Assembly: GCF_026625045.1 (NCBI RefSeq)
Contig: NZ_CP113089.1
Coordinates: 186,001 to 250,000, forward strand
Length of the DNA: 64,000 nucleotides
Reading direction: 5' to 3'
From: Microcella daejeonensis
Lineage (GTDB): Bacteria > Actinomycetota > Actinomycetes > Actinomycetales > Microbacteriaceae
In this document: in pieces, positions 38,446-60,381 of the stretch
Layout of the letters: each line of letters starts with the position of its first letter
How positions within the stretch are numbered: the stretch's first letter is position 1
Notes under the pieces: generated by a model
The model's input: the letters and a program-made list of their open reading frames with translations, nothing else
Databases searched by the model: none
Told to the model about the DNA's origin: nothing
Translations under genes and position numbers: made by a program

Positions 38446-39846
38446 TCAGCCCGCGGCGACCGCCGTGAAGGCCTCGTCGTAGGCGACGAGCGCCCGCTCG
38501 ACCTCGGCCGGCGTGACGATGCACGGCGGCACGACGTGGATGCGGTTGTCGGCGGCGAAGGGCAGCACATGCCGGGCCATCAGCTCGGCCTTGAGGCGGC
38601 CGATGACGTCGGCGCCGACGGGTGCGCGGGTGCCGCGATCGGTGACGAGGTCGAGCGCCCAGAAGACGCCCATGCCGCGGACCTCGCCGATCATCGGGTG
38701 CTTCTCGGCGAGCGCGCGCAGGCCCGGGCCGAGGTGCTTCTCGCCGATCGTCTTCGCGTTCTCGACGATGCCCTCCTCGGTCATCGCGTCGAGCGCGGCG
38801 ACGATGGAGGCCATCGCGAGGGGGTGGCCGGAGTAGGTCAGCCCGCCCGGGAACACGCGCTCGTCGAAGGCCGCCGCGATCGCGGGGCTGATGACGACGC
38901 CGCCCGCGGGCACGTAGCCCGAGTTGACGCCCTTCGCGAAGGCGATGAGGTCGGGGGTGGCGCGCGAGGGGTTGATGTCGGCGCCCTGCCAGGCGAACCA
39001 CTCCCCCGTGCGGCCGAAGCCGGCCATGACCTCGTCGGCGATCCAGACGATGCCGTACCGGTCGCAGATCTCGCGCACGCCCTCGAGGTAGCCGACGGGC
39101 GGGGTCAGCACGCCCGCGGTGCCGGGCACCGACTCGAGCAGGATGGCGGCGATCGTGTCGGCGCCCTCGGCCTGGATGGTGCGCTCGAGGCTCCTCAGCG
39201 CGCGCTCGCACTCCTGCTCCGCCGTCTCGCTGTGGAACTCGCTGCGGTACAGGAACGGACCGAAGACGTGCACGTGCCCGAAGGCGTACTCGTTCGGGAT
39301 GCGCCGCCAGTCGCCGGTCGAGGCGATCGCCGCGCCCGTGTTGCCGTGGTAGCTGCGGTACGTCGAGATGACCTTGTGGCGGCGCGTGGTGAGGCGGGCC
39401 ATGCGGATGGCGTTCTCGATCGCGTCGGCGCCGCCGTTGGTGAAGAAGACCTTCGCGAAACCGGGGCCGGCCTTCTCGACGATGCGCTGCGCGGCCTCGC
39501 CGCGGGCGAGGTTGGCGTGCGAGGGCGCGACCGTGGCGAGCTCGGCGGCCTGCTTCTGGATGGCCGCGACGACCGTCGGGTGCGAGTGGCCGATGTTGGT
39601 GTTGACGAGCTGGCTCGAGAAGTCGAGGTAGCGCTCGCCGTCGTAGTTCCAGACCTCGCAGCCCGCGGCGCCGGCGACGACGAAGGGCTTCAGGGCGCCC
39701 TGCGCGCTCCAGGAGTGGAAGACGAACTCGCGATCGAGGGCGTAGGCGCGCTCGCCGTCGGCGGGGTCCAGCGCCGCGTGCGCCGCGGTGACGGGGGCCG
39801 CGGGAGCGGCGGGGGCGGGGTGCGACCGGTTCAGCGTGTCGGTCAT
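38446..39846 (-). CDS. Class III aminotransferase (aspartate aminotransferase family)
   Basis: This 466-aa omega-type PLP transaminase has the family signature around IVWIADEVMAGFGRTG and the PLP lysine in IAFAKGVNSGY; FFTNGGADAIENAIRMAR binds the cofactor phosphate. Relatives use beta-alanine, gamma-aminobutyrate or related amines with pyruvate or 2-oxoglutarate. The nearby dihydropyrimidinase and ureidopropionase-like genes make beta-alanine (or 3-aminoisobutyrate) the best candidate donor. AAGGA lies nine bases before the ATG, and GATAAT (complement of 39888-39893) is a plausible -10. Confidence 0.87.
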   Translation of the reverse strand: MTDTLNRSHPAPAAPAAPVTAAHAALDPADGERAYALDREFVFHSWSAQGALKPFVVAGAAGCEVWNYDGERYLDFSSQLVNTNIGHSHPTVVAAIQKQAAELATVAPSHANLARGEAAQRIVEKAGPGFAKVFFTNGGADAIENAIRMARLTTRRHKVISTYRSYHGNTGAAIASTGDWRRIPNEYAFGHVHVFGPFLYRSEFHSETAEQECERALRSLERTIQAEGADTIAAILLESVPGTAGVLTPPVGYLEGVREICDRYGIVWIADEVMAGFGRTGEWFAWQGADINPSRATPDLIAFAKGVNSGYVPAGGVVISPAIAAAFDERVFPGGLTYSGHPLAMASIVAALDAMTEEGIVENAKTIGEKHLGPGLRALAEKHPMIGEVRGMGVFWALDLVTDRGTRAPVGADVIGRLKAELMARHVLPFAADNRIHVVPPCIVTPAEVERALVAYDEAFTAVAAG

Positions 39847-39957
39847 CGGTATCGGTCCTTGGTGTCGAGGAAGACGGGGTCGTGGCCATTATCGCCGTCC
39901 ACGGCCGTTCCGCGAGAGGTCGCACCGAGGTTCCTCGCGCGCAGACGCGCAGGACGG

Positions 39958-39974
39958 CATCACGCGTCGTGATG
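39958..39974. promoter_or_regulatory. Inverted repeat between the aminotransferase and a small membrane gene
   Basis: CATCACG-CGT-CGTGATG is a perfect 7-3-7 inverted repeat in the 181-base divergent spacer. It lies about 65 bases upstream of the GATAAT box for the aminotransferase and about 40 bases upstream of the TACCGT -10 of the small gene (40016-40021). It may be an operator; no regulator is encoded nearby. Confidence 0.35.
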
Positions 39975-40027
39975 AATTCTCGATGAACGGAGGTCGCGCG
40001 CCTCGCGTCCGCGACTACCGTGAGCCC

Positions 40028-40243
40028 ATGGTGCCCCTCGAGGTTCAGATCGCCGTTCTCGGACTCCTGCTGCTCGCCCTCGTCACGGCGGCGACGATCG
40101 CCCTCATCCGCCGCGCGACGAGACGTCGCCAGCAGGTGCGCGACGACACCCTCCGGGTCGGCGTCGAGCCCTCGCCCGATCCCGGGCAGGCCGCTGGTCG
40201 CGCCCAGGGCAAGGCCGCCTGGACGCTGCTGCCCGGTCCCTGA
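40028..40243 (+). CDS. Small single-pass membrane protein
   Basis: This 71-aa protein has one hydrophobic helix (about residues 6-26, QIAVLGLLLLALVTAATIAL) followed by a basic RRATRRRQQ stretch and a polar tail, so the C-terminus should be cytosolic. Function is unknown. Its reality is supported by a TACCGT -10 (40016-40021) exactly six bases before the ATG, the same pattern as the leaderless genes around it. Confidence 0.65.
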   Translation: MVPLEVQIAVLGLLLLALVTAATIALIRRATRRRQQVRDDTLRVGVEPSPDPGQAAGRAQGKAAWTLLPGP

Positions 40244-40298
40244 GACCCCGGCGCGGCACGACGATCGTGCGCGGCGCAGGCCCGCGCCCGTCCGTGCG

Positions 40299-41516
40299 CT
40301 ATGACCCGTGCGCGCCGATTCCCTGAGCGCGCAGAAGTTGCGGGATGCGCTCGCGGAACGGGAAGAAGCCGCGCGTGGCGTGCGGCCAGGCTCGGGCATC
40401 CCACTCGCGGTGCAGGGGGACGAGGGGCAGGCCCTCCGGCGCGAGCTCGGCGGCCGCCCGGTCGAGCGCCGTGCGCGCGGCGCCGACGGGCGCGAGCGGC
40501 ATGACGATCGCGTCGAGCTCGTGCCGCGCGGCCCAGGCCGCGATGGCGGGCGCCGTGAGGTCGTCGAGGCTCTCGGCGGGGGCGGCGTGGATGCTGGATG
40601 CGCGGTCGAGGCCGTCGGCGAGGGCATCCCGCTGGAAGTCGGCGACCATCGCGGCGGTGCCCTGCGCGGTGCGCTCCCGCCCGCGCGCCGGGGCCGCGAC
40701 GGCCGCGATGCGCTCGACGCCCGGCAGCGTCTCGGGCGCGAGGTCGTCGTCGTGCAGCAGCAGCCCGAGCCGCCCGAGCGGCGCGGCGGCGGCCGGAGCG
40801 AGGGGCGCCGGGGTCGGCACCGGCTCGTCCTCCTCGAGCGCGGGCGCGACGGTCGCGAGGCCGCGAGGCCGGAAGCGGCCCTCGGTGTAGCGGGCGATGT
40901 TATCGGCGGTGGCGAGGTAGGTCTTGCCGCGCGTCTGCAGTCCGGCGACCCAGCGCCAGCTGAGCGTGTTGGAGGCGGGATCGCCGTCGAGCAGGTGGCG
41001 CAGGAAGAACTCGGCGCCGAGCTGCCAGGGCAGTCGCAGCGTGAAGATCCAGATGCTCGCGAACCACATGCGGGCGTGGTTGTGCAGGTACCCGGTGTCG
41101 ACGAGCTCGCGGGCCCAGTCGTCGAAGCCCTCGATGCCGGCGCGGCCCTCCACGGCGGCGGCGAGCAGGGCCTCACCCTCCTCCCCCAACGATTCGCGGG
41201 CGGCGAGGGCGCCGTGCTCGTAGCGGGTGAAGACGCTCGGGCGCTGCTCGAGCCAGCCCTTCCAGTAGGTGCGCCAGTAGACCTCCTGCACGAACTTGTC
41301 CGCCGCCTGCAGGGAGTGCGTCGCGAGCACGTGCCGCACGACCTCCTCCTCGGTGACGAGGCGGTGGCGCAGGTACGGCGAGAGCTGCGAGACGGCGGGC
41401 TGCTCGTGCGGGCCTCGGTCGTGGTTGCGGTCGGCGGCGTAGCGGCGCCCGGCGAGCGGCGCGAATTCGTCGAGGCGGGCCAGACCGGCCGCGCGGGTGG
41501 CGGGGGCGAACGTCAT
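40299..41516 (-). CDS. Photolyase/cryptochrome-like protein with FAD domain first
   Basis: This 405-aa protein begins with a photolyase FAD-binding domain (residues about 30-220): QLSPYLRHRL, KFVQEVYWRTYWKGW, DTGYLHNHARMWFASIWIF and LLDGDPASNTLSWRWVAG are the expected cofactor and substrate helices. Ordinary photolyases carry an N-terminal antenna domain before this. Here an alpha/beta-like region follows instead (about 240-405: LGRLGLLLHDDDLAPETLPG to LDAIVMPLAPVG). The order is therefore swapped. DNA repair activity is not assured. It lies between the aminotransferase and the ABC transporter operon. Confidence 0.82.
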   Translation of the reverse strand: MTFAPATRAAGLARLDEFAPLAGRRYAADRNHDRGPHEQPAVSQLSPYLRHRLVTEEEVVRHVLATHSLQAADKFVQEVYWRTYWKGWLEQRPSVFTRYEHGALAARESLGEEGEALLAAAVEGRAGIEGFDDWARELVDTGYLHNHARMWFASIWIFTLRLPWQLGAEFFLRHLLDGDPASNTLSWRWVAGLQTRGKTYLATADNIARYTEGRFRPRGLATVAPALEEDEPVPTPAPLAPAAAAPLGRLGLLLHDDDLAPETLPGVERIAAVAAPARGRERTAQGTAAMVADFQRDALADGLDRASSIHAAPAESLDDLTAPAIAAWAARHELDAIVMPLAPVGAARTALDRAAAELAPEGLPLVPLHREWDARAWPHATRGFFPFRERIPQLLRAQGIGAHGS

Positions 41517-41557
41517 GCCCCCAGCCTGCGCGGCCGGCCTGGGAGAACCCGCGGCGG

Positions 41558-42703
41558 CTAGTTGCCGCCCTCCAGCAGCTCGACGTCGATGGGCGCGAAG
41601 CTCTCGCCGTAGATGTCGACGCCCTCCTCCTCGAGCTCGGCGAGCGCCTGCTCGATGTACTCGTTGGTCCACGCGCTCGCCGGCGGCTCCTCGGTGATGA
41701 GGCGGGCGCCGGTCTCGTTCGTCGCGCTCAGCGCCGCGTCGACCGTGTTCTGGTACGCCGTCTCATCGATGAAGCCGATGCCGTTCGGGGCCGGCCAGAT
41801 GAGCTTGTTCGTCTCGTTGACCATCCACAGCTCGTGGCTCGGGCCCCAGCCGCTGCCGGCGTCGATCGTGATCTGCGAGGCCTCCTCCGGGTTCTCGGCC
41901 GCGTAGACCCAGCCCTTGATGACGGCCTTGAGGAACGCGACCGTGGTCTCCTGGTACGCCTCGTCGCTCTCGAGCCGCTCGGTGTCGGCCCAGATCGCGT
42001 CCTGCAGCATGGCGCCGACGGTCTCCTCGTAGCTGATGACGTTCAGGTCCTCCTCGGTGTACAGCTCGCCCGTGTCGGGGTTCGTCGTCTCGAGCACCTG
42101 GGCGAACTCGTTGTAGGTCATCGCCTGCGCGGCGTCGATGTCGCCGCTGAGGAACGCGTTCATGTTGAAGTCCTGCGTGATGATCTCGACGCTCGTGGAG
42201 TCAAGGCCCTCCTCGGCCATGGCCGCGAAGATCTCCCACTCGTTGCCGAAGCCCCACGAGCCGATCTTCTTGCCCTCGAAGTCGGCGACCGACTCGATGC
42301 CGCTGTCGGCCCACGCCACCTGCAGCGTGCCGGAGCGCTGGAAGATCTGCGCGATGTTGGTGACGTTCGCGCCGGCCTCGATCGAGCCGAGCACCTTCGG
42401 CACCCAGGCGATCGCGTAGTCGACGTCGCCGTTCGAGAGGGCGTCCTGCGGCACGATGTCGCCGCCCGAGGGGATGATCTCCACGTCCAGGCCGGCCTCC
42501 TCGAAGTAGCCCTGCTCGGCGGCCGCGAAGTATCCGGCGAACTGGCCCTGCGGCAGCCACTGCAGCTGCAGCGAGACGGGCGTGAGCTCGTCGTCGCCGC
42601 CGGCCTCGCCGGGGGAACCGCTCGCGCAGGCGGTGAGGGCGAGCGCGGCGGTGAGACCGAGCGCGCTGAACGTCGCCAGGCGACGGGGGGTGCTGTGCTT
42701 CAT
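41558..42703 (-). CDS. NMT1/THI5-like ABC transporter substrate-binding lipoprotein
   Basis: This 381-aa lipoprotein has a signal peptide ending in the lipobox LTAC and a type II periplasmic binding fold starting PVSLQLQWLPQGQFAGYFAA, typical of NMT1/ThiY-like proteins that bind pyrimidines, sulfonates or riboflavin-like rings. The operon context with dihydropyrimidinase suggests a pyrimidine, dihydropyrimidine or hydantoin ligand. MKHSTP at 42703 is chosen as the start because GAGAGG lies eight bases upstream. The very acidic mature protein fits an exported solute binder. Confidence 0.88.
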   Translation of the reverse strand: MKHSTPRRLATFSALGLTAALALTACASGSPGEAGGDDELTPVSLQLQWLPQGQFAGYFAAAEQGYFEEAGLDVEIIPSGGDIVPQDALSNGDVDYAIAWVPKVLGSIEAGANVTNIAQIFQRSGTLQVAWADSGIESVADFEGKKIGSWGFGNEWEIFAAMAEEGLDSTSVEIITQDFNMNAFLSGDIDAAQAMTYNEFAQVLETTNPDTGELYTEEDLNVISYEETVGAMLQDAIWADTERLESDEAYQETTVAFLKAVIKGWVYAAENPEEASQITIDAGSGWGPSHELWMVNETNKLIWPAPNGIGFIDETAYQNTVDAALSATNETGARLITEEPPASAWTNEYIEQALAELEEEGVDIYGESFAPIDVELLEGGN

Positions 42704-42790
42704 GGCTGTCCTCTCGTGGATCACGGTGGTGCGGGATGCGGTGCGAAGGGATGGAGCGGTGATGCAGCGGTGCGGGAGGGGGTCGGTGGG

Positions 42791-43579
42791 TCAGCGGCGC
42801 CGCGAGACGGCGGTCTCGAGCGCGAGGGTGACGAGGTAGAAGGCGAGGCCGAGCAGGATCGCCGCGACGACGTAGGCCCAGGCGCGCGGGTACGCGCTCG
42901 AGGCGGCCGAGGTCGAGATGAGCCCGCCGAGCCCGCCGCGCGGACCGCCGAAGTACTCGGCGACGAGCGCCGAGATGACGGCGAGCGACGAGGCGAGGCG
43001 GATGCCCGTGAACGTGTACGGCGCCGCCGTGCGCAGCGTGATCGTGCGCATGATCTGCCAACGGCTCGCCGCGTAGGTGCGCAGGAGGTCGCGGTGCACG
43101 GGCTGGGTCTGCCGCAGGCCGCGCGCCGTCGTGATGAAGACCGGCACGAAGGCGGCGAGCCCCGCGATCAACTGGCGGCCGACCTGCGAGTCGGCGCCGA
43201 ACATCGTGTTGAGCACGGGGGCGAGGGCGACGATCGGGATGACCGCGAGCGCCGCGACGACGGGCGCGAGCATGCCGTCCACCGGCCGGGCGCTCGATGC
43301 GGCGAGGGCGGCGAGAACGCCGAGCAGGGATCCGAGCACGAGGCCGAGCAGCGCGTTGAGGCCCGTGATGCCCGCCGCGCTCAGCATGGTCGGGGCGAAC
43401 TCGACGATCTGCTCGCCGATCGCGGCCGGGCTCGGCAGCAGGTAGGCCTCGACGAGGCCCGAGCCGGCGAGCAGCTGCCAGACGCCGATCACCACGACGC
43501 CGAGCACGACGGGCGCGAGCACCCGCTGCGCGGCGTTCGGCGGGGCATCCCGCATCGGAGCGGCGGTCGCGGCGGTCAT
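42791..43579 (-). CDS. ABC transporter permease (NMT1-type system)
   Basis: This 262-aa inner membrane protein with about six helices has the EAA loop expected for contact with the ATPase (ASRWQIMRTITLRTAAPYTF). It belongs to the SsuC/ThiX-like permease group. Its ATG overlaps the ATPase stop by four bases, and it is followed after 87 bases by the lipoprotein gene. It pairs with the second permease at 44415 in what seems to be a heterodimeric importer. Confidence 0.88.
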   Translation of the reverse strand: MTAATAAPMRDAPPNAAQRVLAPVVLGVVVIGVWQLLAGSGLVEAYLLPSPAAIGEQIVEFAPTMLSAAGITGLNALLGLVLGSLLGVLAALAASSARPVDGMLAPVVAALAVIPIVALAPVLNTMFGADSQVGRQLIAGLAAFVPVFITTARGLRQTQPVHRDLLRTYAASRWQIMRTITLRTAAPYTFTGIRLASSLAVISALVAEYFGGPRGGLGGLISTSAASSAYPRAWAYVVAAILLGLAFYLVTLALETAVSRRR

Positions 43580-44418
43580 CGCGTCTCCACGCCGCGCGCC
43601 CCCGAGACCGGGGTGCCGTGCAGGGCCTCGCGCACCGCCGTGATCATCTCGAAGAAGGCGCCGTCCTCGCGCAGGTCGTCGGCGCGGTCGGCGGTGCGGC
43701 CGAGATTCATGGTCACGATGTCGGCGATGCGACCCGGGCGGGGCGACATGACGACGACGCGGTCGCTGAGGTAGACCGCCTCGGGGATGGAGTGCGTGAC
43801 GAAGACGACGGCGGCACCCGTGTCGGCCGCGATGCGCAGCAGCTCGGTCTGCATGTACTCGCGCGTCATCTCGTCGAGAGCGCCGAAGGGCTCGTCCATG
43901 AGCAGCAGGGCGGGCTTCTTCGCGAGCGCGCGGGCGATCGCCACGCGCTGCTGCATGCCGCCCGAGAGCTGATCGGGGAACCGGTCGGCGAAGTCGCCGA
44001 GGCCCACGAGGGCGACGAGCTCGTCGACCCGGGCCGCGCGCTCGGCCGAGGGCGCCCCGGCGAGCTCGAGCGGCAGCGCGATGTTGCCGGCGACCGTGCG
44101 CCAGGGCAGCAGGCCCGCCTGCTGGAAGGCGATGCCGTACTTCTGATCGAGGCGCGCCCGGTGCGCGGAGGTGCCGAAGACCTCGACGGTTCCCGTGCTC
44201 GGGGCATCGAGATCGGCGATGAGCCGCAGCAGGGTCGACTTGCCGCAGCCGGAGGGGCCGATGAGCGAGACGAACTCGCCCGGCGCGACGGCGAGGTCGA
44301 TGCCCGTGAGCGCCGTCACCTCGCCGGCCTTCGTGGAGAAGACCTTGTCGACGGCGGTGACGGAGACGGCGGGGGCGACGGTGCTGGTGGCGGATGTCGC
44401 GGGAGTGGTGGAGGTCAT
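43576..44418 (-). CDS. ABC transporter ATP-binding protein (NMT1-type system)
   Basis: This 280-aa nitrate/sulfonate/taurine-type ATPase has Walker A IGPSGCGKSTLL, a Q-loop in GIAFQQAGLLPW, signature LSGGMQQRVAIARAL, Walker B LLLMDEPFGALDEMTRE and the switch His in VFVTHSIPEA. It powers the importer formed with the flanking permeases. Both ends overlap the neighbouring genes by four bases, so the three are translationally coupled. Confidence 0.93.
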   Translation of the reverse strand: MTSTTPATSATSTVAPAVSVTAVDKVFSTKAGEVTALTGIDLAVAPGEFVSLIGPSGCGKSTLLRLIADLDAPSTGTVEVFGTSAHRARLDQKYGIAFQQAGLLPWRTVAGNIALPLELAGAPSAERAARVDELVALVGLGDFADRFPDQLSGGMQQRVAIARALAKKPALLLMDEPFGALDEMTREYMQTELLRIAADTGAAVVFVTHSIPEAVYLSDRVVVMSPRPGRIADIVTMNLGRTADRADDLREDGAFFEMITAVREALHGTPVSGARGVETR

Positions 44419-45338
44419 GCCTGCTCCTCGGATCGTCGGTAGGTGCGGAGGATGATGCCGAGCAGCGCGACCGAGCCGGCCGCGATGAGCCCGAGGGCGA
44501 CGGCGCCCGCGATGGGCGCCCAGGCCTTCGCCGGGTCGCCCGAGGCCTGCCCGGCGTACTGGATGACGAGGCGGCCGATGCCGCCCTGCAGGCCCGTCGA
44601 CACCTCGGCGACGACGGCGCCGACGACGGCGTTCGCGGCGGCGAGGCGCAGGGCCGGCAGCAGGTAGGGCACGGCGGCGGGGAACCGCAGGCGCGTGAGC
44701 GTCTGCCACCAGCCGACCGAGTAGGTGTGCATGAGCTCGAGATGGATGCGATCGGGCGCCTGCAGCCCGCGCAGGGCGCCGACGGCGACGGGGAAGAAGG
44801 CCAGGTAGCTCGCGATGACCGCGACCGACATCCAGTCCTGCCACTCGAGCGCACCGATCTCGATGCGGGACCCCCAGCTGCGCACGAGCGGTGCGAAGGC
44901 GATGAGCGGCACCGTCTGGCTCAGCACGATCCACGGCAGGAGCGCCGACTCGGCGATGCGCCACCGCTGCATGACGACGGCGAGGGCGACGCCCACGACG
45001 ACTCCGACCACCCAGCCCGCGGCCGCGATGCCCAGGGTCAGCGAGGCCGCGAGCACGATCTCGAGCCAGAGCGGGTTGGCGCCCTCGGCGCGCGTCACCG
45101 GCTCGAGCATCCTGCCCGCCATCTCCCACAGGTGCGGCATGGCGAGATCGCTGGTGCGCGGCAGCACGCGGATGCCCGCCACGACCACCCCGTCGGCGGG
45201 GCCGAGCGCCTTGTACGCCTCCCACAGGATGCCCAGCGCGAAGAGCCCCGCGAGCCCCCATCCCCACACCCGCAGTCGGGCGCCGCGATCGCGCGCGCGC
45301 CGACGAGGCGGAACGAGCGCGATCGCGGCCTCCGTCAT
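44415..45338 (-). CDS. ABC transporter permease (NMT1-type system), second subunit
   Basis: This 307-aa permease has about six membrane helices after a basic N-terminal tail (RRRARDRGARLR). The EAA loop is YSVGWWQTLTRLRFPAAVPY. It overlaps the ATPase start by four bases and begins four bases inside the LLM oxidoreductase stop, so transport and catabolism are encoded in one coupled unit. Confidence 0.88.
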   Translation of the reverse strand: MTEAAIALVPPRRRARDRGARLRVWGWGLAGLFALGILWEAYKALGPADGVVVAGIRVLPRTSDLAMPHLWEMAGRMLEPVTRAEGANPLWLEIVLAASLTLGIAAAGWVVGVVVGVALAVVMQRWRIAESALLPWIVLSQTVPLIAFAPLVRSWGSRIEIGALEWQDWMSVAVIASYLAFFPVAVGALRGLQAPDRIHLELMHTYSVGWWQTLTRLRFPAAVPYLLPALRLAAANAVVGAVVAEVSTGLQGGIGRLVIQYAGQASGDPAKAWAPIAGAVALGLIAAGSVALLGIILRTYRRSEEQA

Positions 45339-46351
45339 GCCTTCGCCCGCTTGGGAGCGTTGATCGCGGGGATGATGCGCTCGCCGTACACGCGGAGGGT
45401 CTCCTCCTTGTTGTCGTGCTGCAGGTACCCGGCGAACTGGTCGACGCCGAGCTCGCGCAGGGCCTCGAGCTTCTCGATGTGCTGCTCGGCGGAGCCGAGC
45501 ACGCAGAACCGGTCGACGATCTCGTCGGGCACGAAGTCGACGTGGTCGTTGCCCGCCTTGCCGTGACTGTTGTAGTCGTAGCCCTCGCGCCCGGCGATGT
45601 AGTCCGTGAGCGCCGACGGCACCTCGCTGCCGGCGCCGTGCTTGGCGACGATGTCGGCGACGTGGTTGCCGACCATGCCGCCGAACCAGCGGCACTGGTT
45701 GCGCATGTGATCCCAGTCGGTGCCGACGTACATCGGCGCCGCCACGCAGAACTTCACGGCCATCGGATCGCGCCCGGCGTTGTCGGCCGCCGTGCGCACG
45801 GTCTCGATCATCCACTTGGCGATGTCGAGGTCGGCCAGCTGCAGGATGAAGCCGTCGCCGACCTCCCCGGTGAGCTTGAGCGCGAGCGGGCCGTAGGCGG
45901 CCACCCACATCTCGAGCTCGCTGCCCGTGCTCCACGGCAGTTGCAGCGTCGCCCCGTGGTACTCGACGGCGCGGGAGTTCGCGAGCTCGCGGATCACGTG
46001 GATCGACTCGCGCAGCTCGGCGAGGGTCGTCGGCTTGCCGTTGGTGACGCGCACCGCCGAGTCGCCGCGGCCGATGCCGCAGACGGTGCGGTTGCCGTAC
46101 ATCTCGTTGAGCGTGGCGAAGGTGCTCGCCGTCACCGTCCAGTCGCGCGTGGCGGGGTTGGTGACGAAGGGGCCGACCTTCACCCGGTGGGTCTCGGCGA
46201 GGATCGCCGAGTAGATGACGTAGGGCTCCTGCCAGAGGATGTGCGAGTCGAAAGTCCACACGTGGCTGAAGCCGTGCTGCTCGGCGAGCTTGGCGAGGTG
46301 CACCGTGCGCGACGCCGGCGGGTTGGTCTGGATGACTGCTCCGAAGTCCAT
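45335..46351 (-). CDS. LLM-class F420-dependent oxidoreductase (TIGR03842-like)
   Basis: This 338-aa TIM-barrel enzyme of the luciferase-like family starts MDFGAVIQTNPPASRTVHLA and shows family segments HGFSHVWTFDSHILW, GIGRGDSAVRV and MWVAAYGPLALKLTGEVGDG. From memory, this subgroup (TIGR03842) is predicted to use coenzyme F420 and to occur beside dihydropyrimidinase genes; both statements should be checked. It sits 15 bases after hydA and overlaps the permease gene. A role in reducing or oxidising the pyrimidine ring is inferred from context. Confidence 0.85.
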   Translation of the reverse strand: MDFGAVIQTNPPASRTVHLAKLAEQHGFSHVWTFDSHILWQEPYVIYSAILAETHRVKVGPFVTNPATRDWTVTASTFATLNEMYGNRTVCGIGRGDSAVRVTNGKPTTLAELRESIHVIRELANSRAVEYHGATLQLPWSTGSELEMWVAAYGPLALKLTGEVGDGFILQLADLDIAKWMIETVRTAADNAGRDPMAVKFCVAAPMYVGTDWDHMRNQCRWFGGMVGNHVADIVAKHGAGSEVPSALTDYIAGREGYDYNSHGKAGNDHVDFVPDEIVDRFCVLGSAEQHIEKLEALRELGVDQFAGYLQHDNKEETLRVYGERIIPAINAPKRAKA

Positions 46352-47855: not shown

Positions 47856-48704
47856 CTACGGGCGCGTGGTCGCGGTGTAGGAGTCGGGTCGACGATCCCG
47901 GTAGAACTGCCAGTTGTTGCGCACCTCGCGGATGAGGTCGAGGTCGAGATCGCGCGTGACGGTCTCGGTCTGATCCTGGCTCGCGACCTCGCCGACGTAG
48001 TTGCCGCGCGGGTCGACGAAGTAGCTCGAGCCGTAGAAGGTGACCGCGAGGTCGCCGAACTCGTCGCTCTCGGTGCCGATGCGGTTGTTGGCGCCGATGT
48101 AGTACTGGTTCGCAGCCGCGGCGGCGGGCTGCTCGAGCTCCCACAGGCGGTTGGATAGACCGGGCTTGGTGGCGCTCGGGTTGAAGACGATCTCGGCGCC
48201 GTTCAGGCCCAGCTCGCGCCATCCCTCGGGGAAGTGCCGGTCGTAGCAGATGTAGACGCCGACCTTGCCGACGGCGGTGTCGAAGACGGGGTAGCCGAGG
48301 TTGCCGGGGCGGAAGTAGAACTTCTCCCAGAAGCGGTCGAGGTTGGGGATGTGGTGCTTGCGGTACTTGCCGAGGATGGTGCCGTCGGCATCCACGACCA
48401 CGGCGGTGTTGTAGTAGACGCCGGGCATGTCCTCCTCGTAGATGGGGAGGACGATGACCATCTTCAGCTCCTTCGCGAGGGCGGCGAAGCGCTGCACGAT
48501 GGGCCCGTCAGCGGGTTCCGCGTAGTCGTAGTACTTCGCATCCTCGATGATGCCGAAGTACGGCCCGTAGAAGAGCTCCTGGAAGCAGATGATCTGCGCC
48601 CCGTCGGCCGCGGCATCGCGGGCCAGCTGCTCGTGCTTGTCGAGCATCGACTCCTTGTCGCCCGTCCAGGTGGTCTGAGTGATCGCGGCGCGAACCGTGG
48701 TCAT
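47856..48704 (-). CDS. Nitrilase-superfamily N-carbamoyl amidohydrolase (beta-ureidopropionase-like)
   Basis: This 282-aa enzyme has the catalytic triad Glu43 (FQELFYG), Lys116 (YRKHHIP) and Cys153 (YICYDRHFPE). The family hydrolyses N-carbamoyl-beta-alanine or N-carbamoyl amino acids to the amino acid, CO2 and ammonia. It is the first gene of the operon and should act after HydA. The ATG at 48704 is preferred to one at 48710 because AAGGGG is nine bases upstream of it and only three from the other. Confidence 0.9.
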   Translation of the reverse strand: MTTVRAAITQTTWTGDKESMLDKHEQLARDAAADGAQIICFQELFYGPYFGIIEDAKYYDYAEPADGPIVQRFAALAKELKMVIVLPIYEEDMPGVYYNTAVVVDADGTILGKYRKHHIPNLDRFWEKFYFRPGNLGYPVFDTAVGKVGVYICYDRHFPEGWRELGLNGAEIVFNPSATKPGLSNRLWELEQPAAAAANQYYIGANNRIGTESDEFGDLAVTFYGSSYFVDPRGNYVGEVASQDQTETVTRDLDLDLIREVRNNWQFYRDRRPDSYTATTRP

Positions 48705-48710
48705 GTGCAT

Positions 48711-48866: not shown

Positions 48867-49880
48867 ATGAGGATCGTGGTGCTCGCAGGCGGGGTCGGAG
48901 GCGCGCGGTTCGTGCGCGGAGTGCGCGAGGCGGTGCGGCGCGCGGCCCCCGGAGCGCCCCTCGCCGGCGCCGCGATCGACGTCATCGTCAACACGGGCGA
49001 CGACTGGTGGCTCGCGGGCCTGCGCATCACCCCCGACCTCGATTCGATGCTCTACACGCTCAGCGGCCAGAACGACGAGGTGCGCGGCTGGGGCCGGGTC
49101 GGCGAGAGCGAGCGCGTCTCGGCCGAGCTGCAGGCCTACGGCGTCACCCCGCCGTGGTTCACGCTCGGCGACCTCGACCTCGGCACGCACATCGCCCGCA
49201 CGGCGTGGCTGCGCGCGGGCGAGACGCCCTCCGAGGTGGTCCGACGTCTGCAGCAGCGCTGGGAGCTCGGCGTGACCCTGCACCCGGCGACCGACGACGA
49301 GGTCGACACGCACGTCGTCATCGCGGGCGACAGCGGTGCGGCATCCCCCGCGCGCGAGCTGCACTTCCAGGAGTGGTGGACCCGCTACCGCGCCTCGCTG
49401 CCGGCGGCCCGCTTCGTGCAGCACGGCATCGAGAGCGCGGCGCCCTCCCCTGGTGCGCTGGATGCCCTGCTCGACGCCGACCTGGTGCTCGTCGCCCCCT
49501 CCAACCCCGTCGTGTCGATCGGCACGGTGCTCGCCGTGCCCGGCATGCTCGACGCGATCGCCGCCGAGCGCGCCCCGATCGTCGGCGTCTCGCCGATCAT
49601 CGCCGGCGCCGCCGTGCGGGGCATGGCCGATGCCTGCCTCAACGCGATCGGGGTCGCCACCGACGCGGGCGCCGTCGCCCGGCACTACGGGCTGCGCCGC
49701 GACGGCGGGCTGCTCGATGGCTGGCTCGTCGCCGAGGAGGACGCCGCGCTCGTCGCTCCGCTCGACGACGAGGGCTTCGCCGTGCGGGCGGTGCCGCTGT
49801 GGATGAACGACCTCGACACCGCCGCGGCGCTCGCCGAGCAGGCCGTCGCGCTCGGGCTCGAGCTGCGCGACGAGGACTGA
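48867..49880 (+). CDS. cofD: 2-phospho-L-lactate transferase CofD/FbiA
   Basis: This 337-aa enzyme transfers the phospholactate (or phosphoenolpyruvate in actinobacteria) moiety to Fo to make F420-0 or its dehydro form. Signatures are MRIVVLAGGVGGARFVRGV at the N-terminus, VNTGDDWWLAGLRITPDLDS, and VGVSPIIAGAAVRGMADACL near the C-terminus. The ATG is six bases after a TAGCGT -10 (48855-48860). It lies 229 bases upstream of fbiC in the same direction. Confidence 0.95.
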   Translation: MRIVVLAGGVGGARFVRGVREAVRRAAPGAPLAGAAIDVIVNTGDDWWLAGLRITPDLDSMLYTLSGQNDEVRGWGRVGESERVSAELQAYGVTPPWFTLGDLDLGTHIARTAWLRAGETPSEVVRRLQQRWELGVTLHPATDDEVDTHVVIAGDSGAASPARELHFQEWWTRYRASLPAARFVQHGIESAAPSPGALDALLDADLVLVAPSNPVVSIGTVLAVPGMLDAIAAERAPIVGVSPIIAGAAVRGMADACLNAIGVATDAGAVARHYGLRRDGGLLDGWLVAEEDAALVAPLDDEGFAVRAVPLWMNDLDTAAALAEQAVALGLELRDED

Positions 49881-49968: not shown

Positions 49969-50035
49969 TAGGGTGACGACATCGACGCGGCGCACCCGGC
50001 ATTGGGGGCGCCCCGGCCCGGCTTCTGCCCGGGCC
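49969..50035 (+). promoter_or_regulatory. fbiC promoter and GC-rich leader
   Basis: A TAGGGT box at 49969-49974 is the best -10 in the spacer and would start transcription near 49981, giving a leader of about 130 bases, unlike most neighbours. The leader contains a 7-bp GC stem (GGCCCGG 50015-50021 with CCGGGCC 50029-50035). No known riboswitch pattern was recognised. Confidence 0.45.
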
Positions 50036-50109
50036 ACTCCCCGCGGGTCGCGCGCGCCCGCATCCCTCTCGGTCGCCCGCGGGCGCCCGCAGCCGACCAC
50101 GGAGCCCTC

Positions 50110-52740
50110 GTGACCGACGCCGCCGCCTTCATCCCCACCGCCTCCGCCCTCTCGCGCGCGCTCAAGCGCGCCGAGTCGGGCGTGACCCTCGACGCCACCG
50201 AGGCCGAGACGCTGCTGCACGCGCGGCACGACGACCTCGGTCGGCTGCTCGCCGTCGCGAGCCGCGTGCGGGATGCCGGACTCGAGCGCGCCGGACGCCC
50301 CGGCGTCATCACGTACTCCCGCAAGGTGTTCATCCCCCTCACGCACCTGTGCCGCGACCGCTGCCACTACTGCGTCTTCGTGAAGACCCCGAACCAGCTC
50401 GAGAAGGAGGGCAAGGCGCCGTTCCTCAGCCCCGACGAGGTTCTCGAGGTCGCCCGCCAGGGCGCGGCGATGGGGTGCAAGGAGGCGCTGTTCACGCTCG
50501 GCGACCGCCCGGAGGACCGCTGGCCGGCGGCGCGCGAGTGGCTCGACGCGCACGGCTACGACTCGACGATCGACTACCTGCGGGCGATGTCGATCCGCAT
50601 CCTCGAGGAGACCGGGCTGCTGCCGCACCTCAACCCCGGCGTCATGACGTGGGAGGAGATCCAGCGCCTCAAGCCGGTCGCGCCGAGCATGGGCATGATG
50701 CTCGAGACGACCTCGCGCCGGCTCTTCGAGACGCGCGGGCTCGCCCACTTCGGCAGCCCCGACAAGGATCCGGCGCTGCGGCTGCGGGTGCTCGAGGACG
50801 CCGGGCGCAGCAACGTGCCCTTCACCTCCGGCCTGCTGCTGGGCATCGGCGAGACCTATGCCGAGCGCGTCGACGGGATGTTCGCCCTGCGCGCCGTGGC
50901 CCGCCGCCACGGTTCGCTGCAGGAGGTCATCATCCAGAACTTCCGCGCGAAGCCGCGCACCGCGATGCGGGGCGCCGACGACCTGGAGCTGCAGGAGTAC
51001 ATCGCCTCGGTCGCCGTCGCGAAGCTCGTGATGGGCCCGGGTGCGCGCATCCAGGCCCCGCCGAACCTCACCGACGCCGAGGAGCTCGGCCTGCTGATCC
51101 GGGCCGGCATCGACGACTGGGGCGGCGTGAGCCCGCTGACCCCCGACCACGTGAACCCCGAGCGGCCGTGGCCGCAGATCGACGAGCTGGCGCGCCTGAC
51201 CGCGCTCTCGGGCTTCGCGCTGCGCGAGCGCCTCACCGCGCACCCGCACTTCGTGCGCGCCGAGGAGCCGTGGATCGACCCGCGCGTGCTGCCCCACGTG
51301 CGCGCGCTCGCCGGGCCCGACGGCCTGGCCGACGAGTCGGCGATGCCGGTGGGCCTGCCGTGGCAGGAGCCCGACCCCGACTGGGCGGCCATCGGCGGCA
51401 CCGGCCGCACCGACCTGCACGTCGAGATCGACACCGTCGGCCGCACGACGCAGACCCGCGGCGACTTCGAGGACGTCTACGGAGACTGGGCCGAGCTGCG
51501 CGAGACCGTCGGCGATACGCGCCGGTCGGCGTCGGGCTTCGCGGTGAGCGCTGGCGTGCGCGCGGTGCTGCGGCGCGCTGAGGATGCCCCTGCCGGGCTC
51601 TCCGACGCCGACTACCTGACCCTGCTCGACGCCGACGGGGCCGACCTCGACGCCCTCGCGGGTCTGGCCGACGCCGTGCGGCGCGACACGGTCGGAGACC
51701 GCGTCGGCTTCGTCGTGAACCGCAACATCAACTTCACCAACGTCTGCTACACCGGCTGCCGCTTCTGCGCCTTCGCGCAGCGGCGCACCGACGCCGACGC
51801 CTTCACGCTCTCGATGAAGCAGGTCGGCGACCGCGTCGACGAGGCGTGGAACCTGGGCGCGACGGAGATCTGCATGCAGGGCGGCATCCACCCGGATCTG
51901 CCGGGGACCGCGTACTTCGACCTCGCGCGCGAGGTCAAGAGGCGTCAGCCGGGCATCCACCTGCACGCCTTCAGCCCGATGGAGATCGTCAACGGCGCGA
52001 CCCGCACGGGGCTGTCGTTCGAGGAGTTCCTGCGCGAGGCGCAGAGCGCCGGGCTCGACACGATCCCCGGAACGGCGGCCGAGATCCTCGACGACGAGGT
52101 GCGCTGGGTGCTCACGAAGGGCAAGCTGCCGGCGGCGACCTGGCTCGACATCGTGGGCACGGCGCACCGGCTGGGCATCCGCTCGTCGTCGACGATGATG
52201 TACGGCCACGTCGACAATCCCGCGCACTGGGTGGGCCACCTGCGCACGCTGTCGGCGCTGCAGGATTCCACCGGCGGGTTCACCGAGTTCGTGCTGCTGC
52301 CGTTCGTGCACGCGAACTCGCCCGTGTACCTCGCGGGCGTCGCGCGGCCGGGGCCGACGGCGCAGGAGAACCGGGCCGTGCACGCGGTCGCGCGGTTGAT
52401 GCTGCACGGGCGCATCGACCACATCCAGACCTCGTGGGTGAAGCTCGGCACCGAGGGCACGCAGATGATGCTGCGCGGCGGGGCCGACGACGTGGGCGGC
52501 ACCCTCATGGAGGAGACGATCAGCCGCATGGCCGGCGCCGACAACGGCTCGGAGAAGACCGTCGCCGAGCTCGAGGAGCTCGTCGGCGCGATCGGCCGCA
52601 CCGCCTGGCAGCGCACGACGACCTACGGCGAGCCCTCCTCCGAGCGCATCGCCGCCGCGCAGGCGCACCGCACCTCGGGGTACGCGGCGACCGGCCGGCG
52701 GCTCGCGCTGTCGATCGCCGAGGTGCGCGCGGGGGCCTGA
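50110..52740 (+). CDS. fbiC: FbiC, two-domain Fo synthase (CofG-CofH)
   Basis: This 876-aa enzyme makes the deazaflavin Fo from tyrosine and the riboflavin precursor diaminouracil. It fuses two radical SAM domains: the CofG-like half has the cluster motif CRDRCHYC (Cys81, 85, 88) and the CofH-like half CYTGCRFC (Cys546, 550, 553), each followed by TIM-barrel segments such as [13 protein letters not shown] and [14 protein letters not shown]. Length agrees with mycobacterial FbiC (about 856). The GTG at 50110 is used, because the first conserved region begins soon after; the frame stays open further upstream. Confidence 0.96.
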
Positions 52741-53767: not shown

Positions 53768-54181
53768 ATGCTGAAGATCTTCGTCAATCTGCCGGTGGCC
53801 GACGTGGGCCGCTCCCGGGCCTTCTACGAGGCCCTCGGCTTCACCATCAACGAGGCCTTCTCGGGCGAGAGCTCCGCCTGCGTCGTCATGAGCGACACCA
53901 TCTACGCGATGGTCATGGAGCCGGACGACTTCGCCGCCTTCACCGATCTGCCCGTCGCCGACGCGCGCACCGCGACCGCGGCGATGTACGCACTCAGCGC
54001 CGACCGCCGCGACGAGGTGGATGCCCTCCTCGCGCGCGCCGTCGCCGCAGGCGGCACGGCCGCCCGCCCTCCCCGCGACCTCGGCTTCATGTACAGCGCC
54101 GACGTGCGCGACCCCGACGGCCACCACTGGGAGTTCTTCTGGATGGACCCGGTCGCCGCAGAGCAGGGGCCGCCCTCCTAG
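53768..54181 (+). CDS. VOC (glyoxalase-fold) family protein
   Basis: This 137-aa protein has paired beta-alpha-beta-beta-beta modules with MLKIFVNLPVADVGRSRAFY at the N-terminus and the C-terminal DVRDPDGHHWEFFWMDP, where His and Glu are likely metal ligands. Similar proteins are annotated as extradiol-dioxygenase or glyoxalase-like; the reaction is unknown. The ATG at 53768 is seven bases after a TACGGT -10 (53755-53760), better than the upstream frame start at 53759. Confidence 0.88.
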   Translation: MLKIFVNLPVADVGRSRAFYEALGFTINEAFSGESSACVVMSDTIYAMVMEPDDFAAFTDLPVADARTATAAMYALSADRRDEVDALLARAVAAGGTAARPPRDLGFMYSADVRDPDGHHWEFFWMDPVAAEQGPPS

Positions 54182-54255
54182 CCGTCGCGATCGAAGCGCG
54201 GCGTACGGCGCCCGGCCCGCGACTCAGCGCTCGGCTGCGCGCGCCGGCGCCCTCC

Positions 54256-54870
54256 TCAGCCGTCGGCGAGCGCCGCGGTCGTGCGGGCTCCGAGGCCGAG
54301 CGCTCGTGCGGCCTCGAGATCGTCGAGCGTGTCGACGTCGCGGCGCAGGGTGGTGAGGGTGAGCGGCGGGCCGGCGAGTCCGGCCGTGAGGTTGACGTAG
54401 CCCGCCTCGGCGTGCGCCTCGGCGGAGCCCGGCCCGAACCGCAGCGAGTGCGGCAGGCCCGCCGCGGCGACGACGAGCGCCGTTCCCGAGCCCTCGGCGT
54501 CGGGCACGAAGGCCCAGCTGTGCTCGCTCGCCGCGAGCAGCGCGGACTCGAGGTCGGCGGGGTGCAGCGCCGGCAGGTCGCCCAGCAGCACGGCGGTGGG
54601 GGCATCCGCGTCGCAGATCGCCAGCCCCGCGCCGATCGCGACGAGGAGGCCGAAGCCGGGATCGGGCACGATGCGCACGCCGGCGACGGGCTCGGGCAGG
54701 GCCCCGACGACGATGAGCTCGCCCACCGCGGCGCAGGCCCGCGCGGCGAGGACGGTGTCGAGCGCGATCGCCTCGGCGATGCGCGCCCGGCGCTCCTCGG
54801 CGACGGCGAGGCGCGACTTGCCCTGGCCCCCGCCGCGCACGGGGATGACGAGGGAGACGGGACGGGCCAT
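54256..54870 (-). CDS. cofC: 2-phospho-L-lactate/PEP guanylyltransferase CofC/FbiD
   Basis: This 204-aa nucleotidyltransferase activates phosphoenolpyruvate or phospholactate with GTP to supply CofD. It has the small GT-A fold: an N-terminal LVIPVRGGGQGKSRLA, VLLGDLPALHPADLESAL with the metal Asp, and DVDTLDDLEAARALGLG at the end, like other FbiD proteins. The ATG follows a TAGGCT -10 (complement of 54877-54882) by six bases. It provides the missing piece of the F420 set in this window. Confidence 0.93.
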   Translation of the reverse strand: MARPVSLVIPVRGGGQGKSRLAVAEERRARIAEAIALDTVLAARACAAVGELIVVGALPEPVAGVRIVPDPGFGLLVAIGAGLAICDADAPTAVLLGDLPALHPADLESALLAASEHSWAFVPDAEGSGTALVVAAAGLPHSLRFGPGSAEAHAEAGYVNLTAGLAGPPLTLTTLRRDVDTLDDLEAARALGLGARTTAALADG

Positions 54871-54879
54871 CGTTCGAGC

Positions 54880-57186: not shown

Positions 57187-58429
57187 GGCGCGCCCCCTCG
57201 CGCAGCAGGGCCTCGGCGGGCGTGCGCTCCTCGGCGCGCCCGAGCAGCGACCACCAGGCGTCCGCGAGCGGCGCCGTCGGCTCGACGACGGCCGTGAGCC
57301 AGCCGGCCCGGCGGAAGGCGTCCTCCGCCTCGCGGCCCGCCGGGCCGTCGGCGACCGGGCCGGAGGGGGCGACGAGCAGGGCGACGGCGACCGATCCGGG
57401 GGCGCGCTGGGCGAGCATCCACCGCACGGTGCCGGCGTCGGGGCGGCACGCCACCGCGACGAGGGGAACGGACGCGGCGGTGCCTGGGACGCCGTCGAGC
57501 GGAGCGGCCGGCGAGAGGGCGAGCACGGCGAGCTGCCCGAGCACGCGGCCGACCGGGCCGTCGGCGGAGGGCGCCTCGTCGGAGCGCGGCGAGGGTGTGA
57601 CGAGGTCGACGGCGTAGCCCCGTTCGGCGAGGTGCGCGGCGGCGGAGGCGGCCATGCGCACGACCCACTCGAAGGAGGGCGAGGCGGGCTCGCGGCGCGG
57701 CCGGTGATCGGGGTAGGAGGGGAGCTGGTCGTCGACGAGCAGGCGCGCGCGGGGGCCGGCCTGCGGCTCGTCCTGACGCACCATGAGCTCGCCCTGGCGT
57801 GCCGAGACGCGCCAGTGCACGCGCCTCATCGCGTCGCCGCTGCGGTACTCGCGGGTGATGACGTCGTCGTCGGCGCGCTCGCGCGAACGACTGCTGCGCG
57901 GCCCGCTCTCGGCGCTGGGGTCGGGCACCGGTCCGGCGGGCAGCGGCTCGACGGCGGGCAGCACGAGCTGGGTCGTGACGGCGACCGTGCTGGTGACCCG
58001 CACCGCGAGCGCGAAGGGGTCGCGCTCCTCGACGAGCAGCGGGCCGACCGAGGCGAGGCCGCGGCGCTCGGGCCAGTAGCGGTAGCCGAGGGAGCGCGGA
58101 CGCCGCGCGCGCACCTCCTCGAGGCGGCCGGGGCCCGCGTAGCCGGGCGGCATGGGCACGCGCTCGATCCACTCGGCCGCGCGGGCGCGCCCCGAGACGA
58201 GCACCTCGACGCGCACGGGCTCGTCGACGGTCGCGACGACGGGCTGCAGATGCCGTGCGACGGCGAGCCGGGGGCGGGAGGCCGCGACGACGAGGAATCC
58301 CACGATCGGCGCTGCGGCGGCGACCACCGCGAGGGGCAGGATCTCGGGGCGCTCGAGCCCGTAGGCGAGGGCGGCGAGATTGGCGGCGACGACGAGGAAC
58401 GCCCAGCCCCTGCCGGTCAATCGCGGCAC
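57179..58429 (-). CDS. DUF58 domain protein
   Basis: This 416-aa protein has two N-terminal membrane helices (AFLVVAANLAALAYGL, then LAVVAAAAPIVGFLVVAAS) and a cytosolic DUF58 domain with the family mark EYRSGDAMRRVHWRVSAR followed by LMVRQDEP. It works with MoxR ATPases in an unknown assembly or activation process. The GTG at 58429 has GAGGGG six bases upstream and lies eight bases after the moxR stop. Confidence 0.9.
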   Translation of the reverse strand: MPRLTGRGWAFLVVAANLAALAYGLERPEILPLAVVAAAAPIVGFLVVAASRPRLAVARHLQPVVATVDEPVRVEVLVSGRARAAEWIERVPMPPGYAGPGRLEEVRARRPRSLGYRYWPERRGLASVGPLLVEERDPFALAVRVTSTVAVTTQLVLPAVEPLPAGPVPDPSAESGPRSSRSRERADDDVITREYRSGDAMRRVHWRVSARQGELMVRQDEPQAGPRARLLVDDQLPSYPDHRPRREPASPSFEWVVRMAASAAAHLAERGYAVDLVTPSPRSDEAPSADGPVGRVLGQLAVLALSPAAPLDGVPGTAASVPLVAVACRPDAGTVRWMLAQRAPGSVAVALLVAPSGPVADGPAGREAEDAFRRAGWLTAVVEPTAPLADAWWSLLGRAEERTPAEALLREGARRG

Positions 58430-58437
58430 GGCGCCCC

Positions 58438-59505
58438 TCAGTGCCGGGCGCCGGGCACCGGCACGGGGGTCGCGGCGATGATGCGGTGCACGACGTCGTC
58501 GACGCCCCGCACGGGCGATCCATCGGGATGCTGGGCGCGGGGAACGAGGATCATGCGGTGCGAGAGCACCGTGGTGGCGAGCGCGTCGATGTCGTCGGGC
58601 AGCACGAAGTCGCGGCCGTCGAGGGCCGCGCGGGCGCGGGCGGCGCGCACGAGCTGCAGCGTGGAGCGCGGGCTCGCGCCGAGCCGCAGCGCCGAGTCGT
58701 CGCGCGTGGCCTGCACGATCGCGACCGCGTACTGCTCGACGGCGGGGCTCACGAAGACCTCGCGCACGGTCGCGATCATGCGGCGCAGCCCGGCGACGTC
58801 GACGAGGGGCTGCAGGCGGTCGAGCGGCGAGCCGTGCTCCCGATCGCGCAGCATCTGCTGCTCGCTGGCCGCGTCGGGGTAGCCGATCGAGATGCGCGCC
58901 ATGAAGCGATCGCGCTGCGCCTCGGGCAGGGCGTAGGTGCCCTCCATCTCGACGGGGTTCTGCGTCGCGACGACGAGGAACGGAGACTCGAGGCGGTGGG
59001 TGTGCCCGTCGACGGTGACCTGGCCCTCCTCCATGCACTCCAGCAGGGCGCTCTGGGTCTTCGGGCTCGCGCGGTTGATCTCGTCGCCGATGACGATGTG
59101 CGCGAAGACCGGGCCGGGGGTGAACTCGAACACGCCCTGCTGCTGCCGGTAGACGCTCACGCCCGTGATGTCGGCGGGCAGCAGATCGGGGGTGAACTGG
59201 ATGCGGCTGACGGTGCCGGCGATGCACGTGGCGAGCGCGCGGGCAAGCACGGTCTTGCCCACGCCCGGAACGTCCTCGATCAGCAGGTGCCCCTCGGCGA
59301 GCAGCACGGTGAGCGCCATGTCGACGGCTTCGGGCTTGCCGTCGAGCACCCCGTTCATCGCGTGCCGGATGGCGTCGCCGAGCTCGGCGAACCGCTCCAT
59401 CGAGATCGGGCCGGACTCCCCCTCGGCCGAGCCGGCGGCGGCTCCCGCGGTCGGGGGGTCGGCCGGGTGGTGGTCGGCAGTGCCGGGGCTCGTCGTCGTG
59501 CTCAC
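58438..59505 (-). CDS. MoxR-family AAA+ ATPase
   Basis: This 355-aa chaperone-like ATPase has Walker A DVPGVGKTVLARAL, a FTPDLLPADITG segment, Walker B IGDEINRASPKTQSALLE and sensor region VVATQNPVEMEGTY, ending in a helical lid domain. MoxR proteins remodel or insert metal into partners with the DUF58 protein, encoded next. The N-terminal 35 residues are a low-complexity extension (Ala, Pro, Gly). Confidence 0.93.
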   Translation of the reverse strand: MSTTTSPGTADHHPADPPTAGAAAGSAEGESGPISMERFAELGDAIRHAMNGVLDGKPEAVDMALTVLLAEGHLLIEDVPGVGKTVLARALATCIAGTVSRIQFTPDLLPADITGVSVYRQQQGVFEFTPGPVFAHIVIGDEINRASPKTQSALLECMEEGQVTVDGHTHRLESPFLVVATQNPVEMEGTYALPEAQRDRFMARISIGYPDAASEQQMLRDREHGSPLDRLQPLVDVAGLRRMIATVREVFVSPAVEQYAVAIVQATRDDSALRLGASPRSTLQLVRAARARAALDGRDFVLPDDIDALATTVLSHRMILVPRAQHPDGSPVRGVDDVVHRIIAATPVPVPGARH

Positions 59506-59559
59506 GTCGGCATCCTCGCACGTCGCGGTGACGAAAAGGCCGACGACCTCGCGGGAAGG

Positions 59560-60381
59560 TCAGGAATTCTCGGATGCTCCGGCCGCGGCCGCGCGGCCCG
59601 CCGCGAGCCCCTCGGCGTAGCCCGCCGCATGCCCCTCGGCGCGCGCCTCGCGGTGGCCGAGGTAGAACATGTCCTCCTCGGCGCGGCGCACGAGCTGCCG
59701 GCCGCCCGGGGCTGCGGCATCGAGCAGGCGCGCCATTCCGCGGATCACGGCGACGGGCATCCCGCTGGATTTGCCCTTCACGAGGTCGGCGGCCGCCGCG
59801 ATCTCGTCGCCCACGGCGGGGGCCGTGACCTCGAGCAGCTTGCCGCTCGCGTCGCGCCCGCCGCGCAGGTCGTCGAGCAGCCGCACGCCGCTCGCCCCGA
59901 TCGCGATGTCGGTCTGGCCCTCGCGCCAGGCGCGGCCGGCCGTGTCGGTGATGACGACGCCGACGGGGGCGCCGATCCGCGCCTCGACCGCCGCGCGGAT
60001 CGCCGCCGCGCTCGCATCGGGGTCGAGCGGCAGCAGCAGCACGGTGCCGTCGGCGGTATTGCTCGCGTCGACGCCGGCCGCGGCCATGACGAGCCCGAGG
60101 CGGTTCTCGACGATGCGGGTGACGCCTCCGGGGTGCTCGCGGGTCGCGACCACCCGCACGGTCTCGTCGGTGATCGCCTGCTCGCGGTCGGCCGCCGTGC
60201 GGATGCGCCCCTCGGCCTTGCTCACGATCTTGCTCGTCACCGCGAGGATGTCGCCGGGCCGCACGTCGCCCGCCTCCGCCGCCCGCGCGATGAGGTCGGG
60301 CAGGTCGTCGCCGGGCACGATCTCGCCGATGCCGGGCAGCACGAGCACGGTCAGGGCGGTGGGATGCTCGGGTGCGGTCAC
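59560..60381 (-). CDS. cofE: Coenzyme F420-0:L-glutamate ligase CofE
   Basis: This 273-aa GTP-dependent ligase adds glutamates to F420-0. Conserved segments are [65 protein letters not shown] and AVIRGMARL. It corresponds to the N-terminal half of mycobacterial FbiB; the nitroreductase-like C-terminal half is absent, so the dehydro-F420 reduction must be done by another protein. The last 25 residues form an Ala/Gly-rich tail. The GTG at 60381 has a GAGAAT box six bases upstream. Confidence 0.93.

Follow-up and report, generated by a model that had tools for sequence, protein, structure and literature searches.

In the Pyd pathway of reductive pyrimidine degradation, the first step is catalyzed by the NAD(P)H-linked PydA/PreA, a flavin mononucleotide (FMN)/Fe-S dihydropyrimidine dehydrogenase. 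A semialdehyde reductase, PydE, is also part of the route (PMC7332683). PydAc of Clostridium is a ferredoxin-dependent dihydropyrimidine dehydrogenase (PMC7332683). Uric acid clusters of Chloroflexota contain a putative F420 yanthine reductase of the luciferase family (PMC12507026). For mureidomycin, genetics and nuclear magnetic resonance showed that the C5=C6 bond of its uracil moiety is reduced through a putative F420/FMN oxidoreductase whose activity in vitro was not obtained (PMC10714638). In the open-access literature (subscription papers and preprints lay outside the scope), we found, among the papers listed, no F420-dependent enzyme assigned to pyrimidine catabolism; words beginning with uracil or hydantoin are absent from an F420 review, which calls the role of F420 in Proteobacteria unanswered (PMC8498797). 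Here we describe a gene cluster of Microcella daejeonensis that lies in a 64,000-nucleotide stretch (the window), positions 186001-250000 of a single-contig 2.72-Mb genome with 99.98% completeness. We consider it likely that the cluster directs reductive pyrimidine degradation and that the place of PydA/PreTA is taken by a TIM-barrel enzyme with no relation to it, a luciferase-fold F420 oxidoreductase (LLM) of family TIGR03842 that would use hydride from F420H2.

A sequence-only reading of the window had proposed such an F420-linked system, and all the genes that it named are present. On the minus strand, one operon runs from a nitrilase-type hydrolase through HydA, LLM, a permease, an ATPase and a second permease to an NMT1 binding protein. 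A class III aminotransferase is found nearby, beyond a photolyase-like open reading frame (ORF) that separates it from the importer genes. Among the F420 genes, cofD, fbiC and cofC exceed curated cut-offs, while cofE exceeds that of TIGR01916 and stays just short of that of NF009810 (299.1 bits, cut-off 304). The features are as follows, with ABC standing for ATP-binding cassette:

47856..48710, minus strand: nitrilase-superfamily hydrolase, beta-ureidopropionase-like (PydC role); PF00795, 224.6 bits
46367..47827, minus strand: HydA, dihydropyrimidinase/D-hydantoinase (PydB role); TIGR02033, 519.6 bits, cut-off 393.25
45335..46351, minus strand: LLM, luciferase-fold F420 oxidoreductase that we propose to be an F420H2-dependent dihydropyrimidine dehydrogenase; TIGR03842, 585.5 bits, cut-off 295.45
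44415..45338, minus strand: ABC permease 1; PF00528, 67 bits
43576..44418, minus strand: ABC ATPase; PF00005, 118 bits
42791..43579, minus strand: ABC permease 2; PF00528, 80.4 bits
41558..42724, minus strand: NMT1/THI5-like substrate-binding protein of the importer; PF09084, 135.6 bits
38446..39846, minus strand: class III aminotransferase, candidate beta-alanine/beta-aminoisobutyrate transaminase; PF00202; NF004718, 710.9 bits, cut-off 472
48867..49880, plus strand: cofD (F420 biosynthesis); TIGR01819, 303.7 bits, cut-off 257.45
49972..52740, plus strand: fbiC (cofG-cofH fusion, FO synthase), open frame with the start not fixed; NF006687, 1448.6 bits, cut-off 1018
54256..54870, minus strand: cofC; TIGR03552, 114 bits, cut-off 105
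59560..60381, minus strand: cofE; TIGR01916, 225.7 bits, cut-off 180.65
61011-62249: second F420-type LLM, near cofE; TIGR03557, 235 bits, cut-off 210.4
40299-41672: photolyase-like ORF; PF03441 only and part of that profile, start and N-terminal part not clear

Hydrolase and HydA genes are separated by 28 bp and those of HydA and LLM by 15 bp, with 4-bp overlaps from LLM through permease, ATPase and permease. Permease 2 is followed by the NMT1 binding protein after 87 bp if the latter starts at an inner ATG at 42703. The divergent cofD starts 156 bp from the first gene of the operon.

The locus is a variant of a known pathway and not a new kind of system. It resembles the Pyd pathway with PydA/PreTA in HydA, the ureidopropionase-like hydrolase, the class III aminotransferase, the importer and a methylmalonate-semialdehyde dehydrogenase (MMSDH) encoded in the genome (692 bits); in place of PydA/PreA, it has the TIGR03842 LLM and F420 genes. 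The PydAc variant likewise differs in electron carrier, but PydAc is a PydA homologue, whereas the window enzyme belongs to a different family (PMC7332683). In the Chloroflexota clusters, an LLM replaces YgfK/UacX before a cyclic amidohydrolase and F420 is the proposed cofactor, as we suggest for the window; those clusters differ in acting on a purine ring and in coming from another phylum, and the available part of the paper does not state TIGR03842 membership (PMC12507026). We liken the mureidomycin enzyme to the LLM on the reaction described for it (PMC10714638).

The claim that a classical PydA/PreTA is missing from the window extends to the whole genome. PydA and PreA carry a DHO_dh domain, and Escherichia coli PreA scores on DHO_dh-type models. 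The single DHO_dh gene of the host (E 1e-3) encodes a quinone-dependent PyrD (NF003648, 492.6 bits, cut-off 433), and the PreA model NF006183 has no match in the genome at E 1e-60, in a search whose 14 control genomes did yield E. coli and Deinobacterium. A canonical dihydropyrimidine dehydrogenase elsewhere in the genome, the first outcome that the sequence-only reading had named as refuting, was therefore not found at these thresholds, and we reject it; of the canonical Pyd enzymes, the host has the dihydropyrimidinase (TIGR02033) and gave no PydA/PreA. PreA matched in 0/100 phylum-sample genomes (E up to 1e-60) and in 0/148 class-sample genomes, the host being included in both samples. A search for RutA, the enzyme of the Rut pathway, gave eight weak matches in the host genome, none over the cut-off (best 60.4 of 498.3 bits).

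Among named relatives, Microcella flavibacter supplies the best match to the window LLM (98% identity). TIGR03842, whose cut-off the window LLM exceeds, is curated as a hypothetical equivalog. Residues invariant in a set of 23 LLM sequences include Trp32, Asp35, Asn65, Asp97, Tyr258 and Asp259. The structure model of the window LLM is nearest to F420 enzymes, with Mer (F420-dependent methylenetetrahydromethanopterin reductase) and other F420 enzymes at the top of the fold lists; fold and nearest relatives both place it among F420-dependent luciferase-fold proteins, in keeping with its proposed use of F420H2. LLM and Mer share the fold, full-length sequence similarity, a GPxVTNP-like segment and Asp96. 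They differ at Mer Glu6, which is Val in the LLM, and the LLM scores under both cut-offs of the Mer models (139.8 bits, cut-off 276; 137.8 bits, cut-off 348.7). The same fold lists argue against an FMNH2-dependent, RutA-like uracil monooxygenase, an assignment that we regard as very improbable: the LLM has no RutA model match at E 0.001, its gene comes after cof-npdG genes in Alphaproteobacteria, and oxidative ring opening would leave HydA without a substrate.

Three sets of genomes show how consistently LLM and hydA occur together. The first comprised the best 80 of 591 confirmed LLM relatives in species genomes, chosen by LLM similarity and, judged by titles, nearly all from actinobacteria of the order's kind. 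In this set, hydA adjoins the LLM gene in 80/80 loci (78/80 under a stricter coverage filter). Nitrilase is found in 77/80, and in the remaining three (L025, L056 and L081) hydA reaches the contig start. Permease 1 accompanies the LLM in 63/80 loci and an aminotransferase is near it in 66/80, some loci being shortened by contig ends; PreA or PreT matches at 1e-8 were found in 0/80. Median identities were 82% for LLM, 79% for hydA and 78% for nitrilase, in a set whose selection favors LLM.

The phylum sample consisted of 100 genomes drawn evenly (E up to 1e-60 for TIGR03842, 1e-100 for TIGR02033, 1e-20 for cofD and 1e-60 for PreA). TIGR03842 was present in 19 genomes, hydA in 30 and cofD in 57; all 19 LLM genomes had hydA (Fisher test, kinship ignored, 4e-13) and all 19 had cofD (5e-6). 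The distance between LLM and hydA was ≤5 kb in 15/19; in the others it was 12 kb or 50 kb, or the genes were on different contigs (two genomes). In each of these four genomes, a different member of the gene set lies no more than 10 kb from the LLM: NMT1 importer and MMSDH in L149, MMSDH in L151, nitrilase and NMT1 importer in L148, and NCS1, M20 and aminotransferase in L140. Of 148 class-sample genomes (E up to 1e-90 for LLM and 1e-110 for hydA), 38 had LLM, 41 hydA and 37 both (Fisher, same caveat, 3.5e-29), with 37/37 pairs ≤2.4 kb apart and 27 of them ≤500 bp. The two samples overlap, the LLM genomes common to both being G000 and G023; pooled, they contain 55 LLM genomes from 17 families, 54 of them with hydA. 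Families f1, f7, f13, f16 and f18 each include genomes with the LLM-hydA pair and genomes with neither. The co-occurrence that the sequence-only reading had called for was therefore borne out, and a chance neighborhood is rejected on the counts of 80/80, 19/19 and 37/38.

In distant loci, the partners of LLM change: nitrilase or M20 carbamoylase, NMT1 ABC importer or NCS1 symporter, with MMSDH joining the cluster. Since these enzymes change type and retain the roles of the Pyd pathway, we count the exchanges in support of a Pyd-type route. A different proposal is that the LLM acts later in the route, perhaps reducing or oxidizing malonic semialdehyde with F420, in a cluster that imports already reduced pyrimidines or hydantoins. 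Among known F420 LLMs there are indeed an alcohol dehydrogenase and dehydrogenases of sugar phosphates, and the Pyd pathway has the semialdehyde reductase PydE (PMC7332683). However, the first step would then be left without an enzyme in genomes lacking PreA, and the host MMSDH already handles the semialdehyde; LLM and MMSDH are adjacent in L142 and L147 and so are not substitutes for each other. We consider a downstream role improbable.

HydA matches D-hydantoinase in the PDB (E 2.3e-136) and carries His66/His68, Lys157, His190, His246 and Asp330, which we take to be the motifs of its catalytic residues. The nitrilase-type hydrolase has Glu45, a Lys in KYRK 115-118 and Cys155, presumably its catalytic motifs too; it scores 255.6 bits on TIGR03381, under the cut-off of 410.25, and exceeds the cut-off of no curated equivalog. 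Its PDB relatives include N-carbamoylputrescine amidase and beta-ureidopropionase. The closest NCBIfam models of the ABC ATPase are taurine/nitrate ABC ATPases, with scores under the cut-offs. NF004718, the curated family matched by the aminotransferase, has no function name, and beta-alanine or beta-aminoisobutyrate is the presumed substrate of the enzyme.

In the proposed route, the NMT1-type ABC importer would take up the pyrimidine base, and the LLM would reduce its C5=C6 bond with F420H2, the F420 being supplied by the adjacent F420 genes. HydA, by its family, would open the dihydropyrimidine ring, and the hydrolase, by its superfamily, would take off the carbamoyl group. The aminotransferase would yield a semialdehyde, which the genomic MMSDH, a family member, would turn into acetyl- or propionyl-CoA.

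The same logic could serve another substrate, with the LLM as an F420H2 ring reductase for some other imported N-heterocycle, such as an unsaturated hydantoin, a ring derived from a purine, or a pyrimidine that is modified or of the thiamin type, and with HydA opening the product. The solved relatives of the NMT1 binding protein include 3ix1, a formylaminopyrimidine-binding protein, and the HydA family names leave the substrate unfixed. Other LLMs, too, adjoin hydA. At L170:7070-10230, in class-sample genome G110, hydA lies beside a different, Mer-like LLM (74.8 bits on TIGR03842, far below the cut-off) together with npdG (198 bits, cut-off 149.8) and, by tblastn, aminotransferase, nitrilase and NMT1 importer genes; from its gene content, this locus reads as a second F420 module on the same plan without TIGR03842. 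At L181:9108-14582, in an actinomycetal genome, hydA, an LLM and two carbamoyltransferases are consecutive, an arrangement similar to that of the Chloroflexota uric acid clusters for which F420 has been suggested (PMC12507026). Against another substrate, MMSDH and class III aminotransferases near many LLMs fit beta-alanine and beta-aminoisobutyrate, which derive from uracil and thymine, and similar partners occur with preTA: those of preT-preA on a Thalassospira plasmid (M20 hydrolase, aminotransferase, MMSDH and nitrilase) are 54, 70, 58 and 48% identical to LLM-cluster partners. We judge a substrate of this kind unlikely, though clearly less so than a downstream role.

The LLM-hydA partnership recurs in the sampled genomes of the phylum; unrelated bacteria carry it on plasmids, where F420 genes accompany it. 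The Pseudomonadota evidence comes from plasmids, not chromosomes. Of 11 alphaproteobacterial plasmid matches, three regions were read (2 of 10 Leisingera, plus Paracoccus alcaliphilus), and 3/3 contain the run cofG-cofH-cofD-cofC-cofE-npdG-LLM, with LLM last. Beside it, both Leisingera species have a divergent run, pntA-pntB-aminotransferase-M20 hydrolase-hydA-NCS1, while in P. alcaliphilus the LLM is followed by NMT1 binding protein, ATPase and permease genes, as in the window. To the window, the plasmids thus add F420 synthesis, NADPH-F420 reductase and LLM in one gene run, with hydA beside it in Leisingera. NpdG produces F420H2 from NADPH, and transhydrogenase makes NADPH; their presence beside the LLM suggests that electrons probably flow towards the substrate. 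DUF1330 genes are found near the F420/LLM clusters of Leisingera and Paracoccus (L166:16287-16580, L159:6083-6373), and in the two Leisingera plasmids read the LLM operon is succeeded by genes of a branched-chain 2-oxoacid dehydrogenase complex (L160:14510-19410). A Rhodococcus plasmid match (32.7% identity) is without annotation.

Several observations weigh against F420H2-dependent pyrimidine reduction by the LLM. The HydA and NMT1 families also act on hydantoins and other substrates. No npdG over the cut-off was found in the host genome (best 56.6 of 149.8 bits); the TIGR03557 LLM is a possible F420-reducing dehydrogenase of the host. Neglect of kinship limits the Fisher tests. Genome G119 has a TIGR03842 LLM (L168:12418-13434) and no hydA match. 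Conversely, hydA occurs without LLM in 11/30 phylum-sample and 4/41 class-sample hydA genomes. On the plasmids, hydA is not annotated at 120000-184405 in P. alcaliphilus (64 kb; gene tables incomplete) or in the 15 kb read around Thalassospira preTA, and all of the partner genes are missing from a preTA region of Mycetohabitans.

The neighbors of the L168 LLM include an EmrB-like efflux pump, an ABM-domain gene and several genes matching no model, a setting that is possibly one of secondary metabolism. The class-sample genomes with hydA and without TIGR03842 are G049, G110, G120 and G218; in G218, hydA accompanies an M20 amidase and two hydrolases, one of TRZ/ATZ type and one of the nitrilase family, and we recognized no reductase there. 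At the 11 hydA-only phylum-sample loci, hydA shares 33-42% identity with the query proteins; tblastn with the query set found no PreA, nitrilase or M20 partners and weak LLM matches at L175 and L181.

Overall, several lines of evidence support the joint F420 pathway of the sequence-only reading, within which we infer the reaction, a pyrimidine rather than a related ring as substrate, and the substrate of the aminotransferase. We give about even chances to a broader proposal, that TIGR03842 enzymes act generally as F420H2-dependent dihydropyrimidine dehydrogenases and provide the standard first step of pyrimidine catabolism in PydA-less Actinomycetota, and that F420 synthesis in some Alphaproteobacteria is chiefly explained by a portable plasmid cof-npdG-LLM-hydA cassette. 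These results suggest a rule by which luciferase-fold F420 enzymes reduce N-heterocycles directly before cyclic amidohydrolases.

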